From the NCBI RefSeq assembly GCF_016793825.1, contig NZ_JAEULM010000030.1, forward strand, positions 62,001 to 126,000: a DNA stretch of 64,000 bases. Reading direction: 5' to 3'. Position 1 is the first letter of the stretch. Each line of letters starts with the position of its first letter. The stretch is from Sphingopyxis sp. (GTDB lineage: Bacteria > Pseudomonadota > Alphaproteobacteria > Sphingomonadales > Sphingomonadaceae). The notes beneath the pieces were generated by a model. The model made no database searches, had not been told where the DNA came from, and saw nothing but the letters and a program-made list of their open reading frames with translations. The position numbers were made by a program, and so were the translations under genes. Shown piece after piece: positions 50,067 through 50,218 of this stretch.

Positions 50067-50218
50067 GAGTCTTCCCGGCCACACTACCAGTGGTTGAGTC
50101 TCCGATTCGTCCCAGACTCCATATGTCGTGGCAGACTCGTTTCGTTCTCCTGCCGTTAACCATATCGACACGCAGAATCCCTAGAATCCGTGACTTGACG
50201 GCGGACTCCGCCGGACTC
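50067..50218. promoter_or_regulatory. Cluster of nine GANTC methylation sites upstream of ccrM
   Basis: GANTC occurs at 50067, 50096, 50104, 50115, 50134, 50175, 50184, 50204 and 50214, all in the 240-base region before the GANTC methyltransferase gene. About 0.5 site would be expected in 152 bases at this GC content. Strongly suggests methylation-dependent autoregulation of ccrM, possibly through GcrA. Confidence 0.8.

Follow-up and report, generated by a model that had tools for sequence, protein, structure and literature searches.

In Caulobacter crescentus, GANTC sites precede ccrM and expression of the gene is tied to replication and methylation, with ccrM described as being transcribed from hemimethylated DNA under CtrA (PMC10073500, PMC2217572). 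The Sphingopyxis locus analyzed here is alike in having GANTC sites before ccrM but differs in their arrangement: the available portions of these accounts, with which the locus was compared by description, give two sites and mention no dyad, whereas the Sphingopyxis region has nine in two layers. GcrA is reported to bind methylated DNA and sigma and to stimulate open complexes (PMC7403470), and GcrA/CcrM-dependent promoters offer a second likeness, as ctrA P1 carries a GANTC at about −28 (PMC4287350) and ftsZ and mipZ needed a CGACTC motif (PMC3708114). Unlike the present region, these three promoters are described, in the available portions of the same reports, with neither a fixed GANTC pair in which the −10 element starts inside a site nor an upstream GANTC dyad. 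Methylation-linked autoregulation of ccrM is known, and the conserved two-layer architecture appears to be new; among the matches listed in the ccrM, GANTC and sphingomonad literature (titles and the starts of abstracts, mostly open-access), no description of a ccrM promoter of such architecture was found. Dam-dependent operators (pap/Lrp and agn43/OxyR) and the SeqA-bound GATC clusters of E. coli also gather several methylation targets in a symmetric operator or cluster; their methylase and readers differ, and the comparison is one of how they work only. Restraint of CcrM outside Caulobacter has been little studied, as far as the literature examined shows.

The gene downstream of the array (Table 1) encodes a CcrM-family protein: domain searches identified Pfam N6_N4_Mtase, with a DPPY motif, and a C-terminal RAMA domain, and the closest solved structure is C. 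crescentus CcrM (6pbd, E 3e-152, residues 31–375). Assignment to the genus Sphingopyxis is supported by eight named relatives (89–95% identity) and by the same genus in the genome search.

Table 1. Features of the ccrM upstream region, in coordinates of the window (the whole stretch of DNA analyzed, 64,000 bases); sites named −81 and −72 are numbered from the start of ccrM.
Feature	Position	Strand	Remarks
Outer-left GANTC of dyad (GAGTC)	50067..50071	.	Conserved in alignments
Left half-site CTACCAGTGGTTGAGTC (relatives' consensus about CCACAAnATGTTGAGTC)	50084..50100	+	Holds inner-left GANTC, 50096–50100
Central GANTC of dyad	50104..50108	.	41/50 Sphingopyxis; N base G or T
Right inverted half-site GACTCCATATGTCGTGG	50115..50131	-	Holds inner-right GANTC, 50115–50119; opposite-strand model matches
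Outer-right GANTC of dyad (GACTC)	50134..50138	.	Conserved four-site spacing
Conserved TTTCGTTC adjoining outer-right GANTC	50140..50147	+	Alignment of relatives
TTAACCAT, CtrA half-site-like	50156..50163	+	39 bases before −35; seen by eye
GANTC at −81	50175..50179	.	Kept in 44/50 Sphingopyxis
GANTC at −72	50184..50188	.	36/50 Sphingopyxis; at least 4 more shifted by one base
−35-like element TTGACG	50195..50200	+	TTGAC with GANTC at offset 19 in 50/50 Sphingopyxis
Core GANTC 1 (GACTC)	50204..50208	.	In −35/−10 spacer; centre of palindrome GGCGGACTCCGCC
Core GANTC 2 (GACTC)	50214..50218	.	Starts 19 bases after first T of TTGAC; 50/50 Sphingopyxis
Putative −10 hexamer CATCAG	50218..50223	+	17-base spacer; predicted promoter role
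ccrM, GANTC-type DNA adenine methyltransferase, 383 aa	50256..51407	+	N6_N4_Mtase + RAMA

The initial annotation had noted nine GANTC sites packed before ccrM where about 0.5 would be expected by chance. The nine sites are present in the 152 bases from 50067 to 50218 (beginning at 50067, 50096, 50104, 50115, 50134, 50175, 50184, 50204 and 50214), and the base composition of that stretch itself gives an expectation of 0.53. GANTC is about threefold rarer in the window (1–64000) than dinucleotide shuffles predict (119 found vs 346), in agreement with its published depletion in Alphaproteobacteria (PMC3973325), so that the real background for 152 bases, 0.28 sites (773 GANTC in 422,539 bases sampled from the same genome), lies below the expectation from composition. 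No other 152-base stretch of the window has four or more sites, and the array is the densest place in the whole sample (the window and 20 further stretches, 11% of the 3.86 Mb genome), where the runners-up have five, four and four. The five lie on contig C40 (L049:19503-19672; six per 170 bases), near the start (first 260 bases) of a frame of 650 codons resembling ribonucleotide reductase (labeled by eye), and on contig C1 four sites fall in 65 bases (L037:511-575) directly upstream of a frame that appears by eye to be glycosyltransferase-like. Read by eye, the 150 bases preceding gcrA hold a single GANTC, and a dense array is therefore not general in the circuit. Sites were also counted over the 18 kb surrounding ccrM in one Sphingopyxis, 12 genomes from other genera of the family and seven from other families. 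In 18 of these 20 genomes no 152-base window outside the promoter reached the promoter count; in the remaining two it was equalled by 39 windows and by 2 windows near ccrM.

Conservation in close relatives was checked in orthologous ccrM upstream regions. The gene is present in 59 of 60 genomes of the genus, and 50 Sphingopyxis regions were taken from the 58 with an unbroken match (the 30 best-scoring and 20 of the remaining 28, with all eight named loci already among them). The cluster is present in all 50, the densest 152 bases holding 7–9 sites in the 30 best-scoring regions and 4–9 in the 20 others; aligned to the window, its nine places keep GANTC in 49, 50, 41, 48, 47, 44, 36, 42 and 50 of the 50, in order. 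The corresponding counts are 3–8 in 40/40 other genomes of the family and 0–8 in genomes of other families, at least four being reached in 19/40 of the latter (40 of the 86 class genomes with a match, 29 of 115 having none; they were taken in two lots, the first of which leaned to higher identity and long contigs). The suggestion in the initial annotation that CcrM counts its own methylated sites is not supported by these comparisons: the number drifts (4–9, 3–8 and 0–8) while core site 2 and the dyad places are fixed, and as position is conserved and number is not, counting was rejected as the main idea.

The layout nearest the gene is TTGAC, followed by a GANTC at offset 6–11 and a second GANTC at offset 19. 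This first layer, common to many other alphaproteobacterial families, would be a sigma-70-type promoter with one GANTC in its spacer and a −10 element beginning inside another, because a 17-base spacer makes the last C of core site 2 the first base of the putative −10. A GANTC at offset 19 is found in 30/30 best-scoring and 20/20 other Sphingopyxis regions, and in 33/40 other genomes of the family and 58/80 named loci, which after removal of duplicates come to 81 of 110 distinct non-Sphingopyxis sphingomonad regions (112 collected, 40 from the same family and 72 named, and recounted on 110 as two genomes appeared twice); in other alphaproteobacterial families it is found in 21/40 genomes and lies elsewhere or is absent in 19/40. 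Both core sites occur together in 27/30 and 16/20 Sphingopyxis regions, in 28/40 other genomes of the family and, for the two lots from other families, in 13/20 and 9/20 (in two of these genomes the second site is at 20). Core site 2 is missing in 20/80 named loci, 19 of them titled Sphingomonas (e.g. L181, L182, L189, L192, L213 and L231), and the core site 1 kept in such loci is often at offset 6–7. Core site 1 is lost in 7/50 Sphingopyxis, five of which (L029, L030, L134, L144 and L148) keep the surrounding GGCG...CGCC palindrome, which may have a role of its own.

The second and sixth bases of the hexamer are the positions of most weight in sigma-70 −10 elements. The base after core site 2 is A in 101/101 distinct non-Sphingopyxis cores (a count not selected for A), and position 6 is T in 68/101 and, outside the family, in 20/20; against the sigma-70 reading, the putative −10 of Sphingopyxis itself ends in G, not T. 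A scan with the sigma-70 consensus called no promoter at the ccrM upstream region, and a terminator scan found no terminator-like site at 49950–50300. In control DNA (20 stretches of the same genome and 20 stretches of 18 kb), 17 of 910 TTGAC occurrences had a GANTC at 19, 16 of them ccrM cores and one not, and the 14 with both core sites are all ccrM cores by their letters. As a sequence model, the core had its top match at ccrM in 9/9 Sphingopyxis (E 4e-5 to 9e-5); no further match was better than E 0.018, and the E-value gap to the runner-up was 500-fold or more in every genome. The alignments of the dyad and the core were built from rows selected for GANTC in place, which makes their GANTC columns invariant by construction, as is the A after GANTC in the core alignment; the 101/101 comes from the separate count. 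The occurrence of the core in many other families points to an ancient design for autoregulation, one not described in the available portion of an earlier analysis that was blind to site location (PMC7987155).

The second layer, confined to the Sphingopyxis family in our searches, is an inverted repeat whose half-sites both terminate in GAGTC, in most cases with another GANTC lying beyond. Its consensus is GAGTC-N24-GAGTC-N14/15-GACTC-N14-GACTC-nTTTCGTTC, the inner pair terminating two inverted half-sites near CCACAAnATGTTGAGTC. The full four-site spacing is found in 44/50 Sphingopyxis and 38/110 other sphingomonad regions, and the looser pattern of GANTC followed by an ACAC-type sequence, ahead of the core, in 149/162 sphingomonad regions (by group, 48/50 Sphingopyxis and 99/110 distinct others). 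A model of the dyad, built from some of the genomes that it afterwards found, detected it at E 0.1 in 16/17 genomes of the family, lying just upstream of ccrM in 11 of those 16, that is, in the genomes where the place of ccrM is known, and in 0/43 genomes of other families of the order. Within Sphingopyxis the model placed the dyad at ccrM in 12/13 genomes; the thirteenth (G009) is also without a ccrM match. The inverted symmetry is confirmed by matches of the model to the opposite strand at the same place (12/12 Sphingopyxis, and 9/16 genomes in the family-wide search). The genome studied here yielded no second copy, either by BLAST, except for a 17-base match at E 3.6, or by the model at E 1, its one other hit being the reverse strand of the dyad itself. 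Elsewhere than at ccrM, the model gave weak matches in G010 (E 0.066 and 0.32), G288 (0.13), G292 (0.27) and G070 (0.06).

Outside GANTC, the two half-sites agree in only 5.0 of 12 bases in Sphingopyxis, and the arms are scarcely more alike within genomes than between them (5.02 vs 4.97, sd 0.04, for 48 Sphingopyxis; 6.68 vs 6.43 of 12, sd 0.13, for 74 non-Sphingopyxis rows). An RNA hairpin at the inverted repeat was rejected on these grounds and because compensatory changes were found at 0/5 pairs of the predicted hairpin in 49 sequences, although all five pairs fall in GANTC columns, which row selection had made invariant. A second promoter in the dyad, with TTGAGTC as its −35, misfits by eye in its spacing to a −10, and readings of the half-site as an IHF, NtrX or DnaA site, judged by eye, are unconvincing in Sphingopyxis.

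The spacing between the two layers varies in helical steps. From the inner-left GANTC to TTGAC, 54/57 anchored Sphingopyxis rows measure 99 bases (eight named rows being counted twice), the three remaining rows giving one 110 and two values of 11 that come from a wrong TTGAC. Among 99 distinct other regions the distance is 87–89 in eight, 98–100 in 73 and 109–111 in 15, with 96, 96 and 113 off phase; 88, 99 or 110 (±1) thus accounts for 96/99, a further 11 of the 110 regions having no scored dyad (before removal of duplicates, 98/101 were in phase and 5/101 had a low-confidence core). A simpler anchor had given odd distances (11, 20, 118, 128, 205 and 278), partly through wrong TTGAC picks, and with the revised anchor the 118 and 128 cases become 89 and 99. 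The steps are of 11 bases, one turn of DNA; by contrast, TTGAC stands anywhere from 49 to 150 bases before the point where the gene match starts. The three distance classes require at least 10 changes when mapped on a tree of CcrM proteins from the named loci, and the 110 class alone needs eight, seven of them forced by well supported branches (53 labeled rows of 80, on a quick tree with 20 open forks and with labels from the simpler anchor). With several changes on the tree, the classes are not one inherited indel; the labels are nearly as scattered as shuffled ones (10 changes vs a shuffled mean of 11.4). From the helical steps we infer proteins on one face of the DNA that contact the polymerase.

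Judged from sequence, the array is most likely a methylation-read, replication-coupled and autoregulated ccrM promoter, and it is likely that the methylation marks at ccrM help control production of CcrM itself. In the core, the top strand would carry an N6-methyl-adenine at about −15 and the bottom strand one at about −13, shortly before the point of bubble opening. After replication the core sites would be hemimethylated until CcrM acts, and promoter output should consequently shift at passage of the fork and again at remethylation by CcrM. The dyad is probably bound by a symmetric protein, or by two molecules of one protein, which could make contact, on the same DNA face, with either RNA polymerase or an activator of the CtrA type. 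We hold with moderate confidence to this two-layer model as a whole, a ccrM regulatory region in which the transcription machinery would sense GANTC methylation at set positions. A more specific reading of the dyad, as the operator of a methylation-sensitive regulator that is used only at ccrM, is bound in one methylation state and acts on the polymerase in register, is offered tentatively and is, to our minds, rather doubtful. Were it true, CcrM would set the methylation state both of its operator and of its −10. The result would be an epigenetic switch, reset by replication, with the methylase gene serving as writer and reporter at once. The fixed methylation sites at the −10 and the phased dyad make control of CcrM directly testable by point and spacing changes.

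GcrA is a plausible reader of the core sites, which are suitably placed for a reader of its type: their positions agree with the 'near −35/−10' placement of GANTC in GcrA-dependent promoters, and gcrA is present in the same genome. The GcrA context is given as YGAKTCK (PMC7987155); in most cores the complementary strand of core site 2 is TGAKTC, with C or A as the N base of the site. According to the available portion of that study, ccrM is predicted to belong to the core GcrA targets and to have been lost from them in Caulobacterales, in an analysis that ignored site location (PMC7987155). Across 40 class genomes there was no association of GcrA presence with the core, a GcrA match being found in 18/23 with core site 2 (at 19 or 20) and 15/17 without it; the search also matched Sulfolobus among 14 controls, and some matches may not be GcrA. 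As five of the 23 genomes with core site 2 showed no GcrA, a role for GcrA as sole reader is weakened, and the polymerase itself, whose putative −10 would overlap core site 2, is an alternative. As to the sign of the feedback, we consider activation most likely, exerted through core sites that are methylated or hemimethylated and read by GcrA where it is present; shut-down by full methylation comes next.

The latter would correspond to negative feedback of the Caulobacter type, in which hemimethylated sites allow CtrA-driven transcription of ccrM, full methylation stops it and many sites sharpen the stop. We regard this as possible but unlikely. TTAACC and the longer TTAACCAT resemble CtrA half-sites, and TTAACC lies between the dyad and the −35 in 42/99 scored distinct relatives, in 40 of which it is stepped at 15, 27–29 or 38–39 bases before the −35, as negative feedback through CtrA would favor. 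Relative to the full CtrA consensus, TTAA-N7-TTAA (PMC4287350), the ccrM upstream region holds by eye only the half-site-like TTAACCAT. Expression of Caulobacter ccrM from hemimethylated DNA, at a promoter with two GANTC sites (PMC2217572, PMC10073500), and the description of ccrM itself as 'most probably' methylation-regulated (PMC3973325) both suit this explanation. However, the suggested loss of GcrA input at ccrM in Caulobacterales (PMC7987155) means that Caulobacter may guide poorly here, and the core sites are placed similarly to those of early-activated GANTC-bearing promoters; Caulobacter promoters with GANTC between −10 and −35 are described as having a distinct activation time (PMC4287350).

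The fine pattern of conservation bears on whether methylation matters at all, the dyad and core being on this account ordinary factor binding sites whose motif contains GAGTC, with methylation incidental. Like a protein motif, six of the nine Sphingopyxis sites (−189, −160, −141, −122, −52 and −42) have a nearly fixed N base, no more than one of the intact copies differing, and this points to protein recognition in addition. Elsewhere the N base is free, being G or T at −152 and A, G or C at −72, where at least four more rows keep GANTC one base off; retention of GANTC in spite of a free N base or a one-base shift suggests selection for a methylatable site as such. Column identity over the 50 Sphingopyxis is 0.954 for GA and TC, 0.853 for N and 0.834 for other columns (rank test p 8e-5), and intact GANTC number 417, vs 382 (sd 3) after shuffling of columns among sequences, an excess to which relatedness contributes. 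As the GA/TC columns exceed the N columns, GANTC is depleted elsewhere and the downstream gene is the GANTC methylase itself, we consider incidental methylation improbable. The array might instead act through bound CcrM, as a place where the enzyme docks or is titrated or as the stretch that stays hemimethylated longest, and it would fit that the CcrM dimer is reported to open DNA at its target (PMC6787082) and that part of the −10 would fall within a site. This appears very unlikely, as it accounts neither for the helical steps nor for the half-site bases conserved outside GANTC.

Two further observations concern the core of the methylation-read promoter that we favor. In one Sphingopyxis relative (G005, contig C1), about a dozen near-equal weak matches cover about positions 2–24 of the core model and may represent a short repeat dispersed in its genome. 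In seven relatives (L071, L073, L080, L081, L217, L246 and L248), ACCCTGTGGA directly follows core site 2, and in four of these it was seen to extend to TGTGGATAA, which we take to be a DnaA-box-like sequence, hinting at a DnaA input at ccrM.
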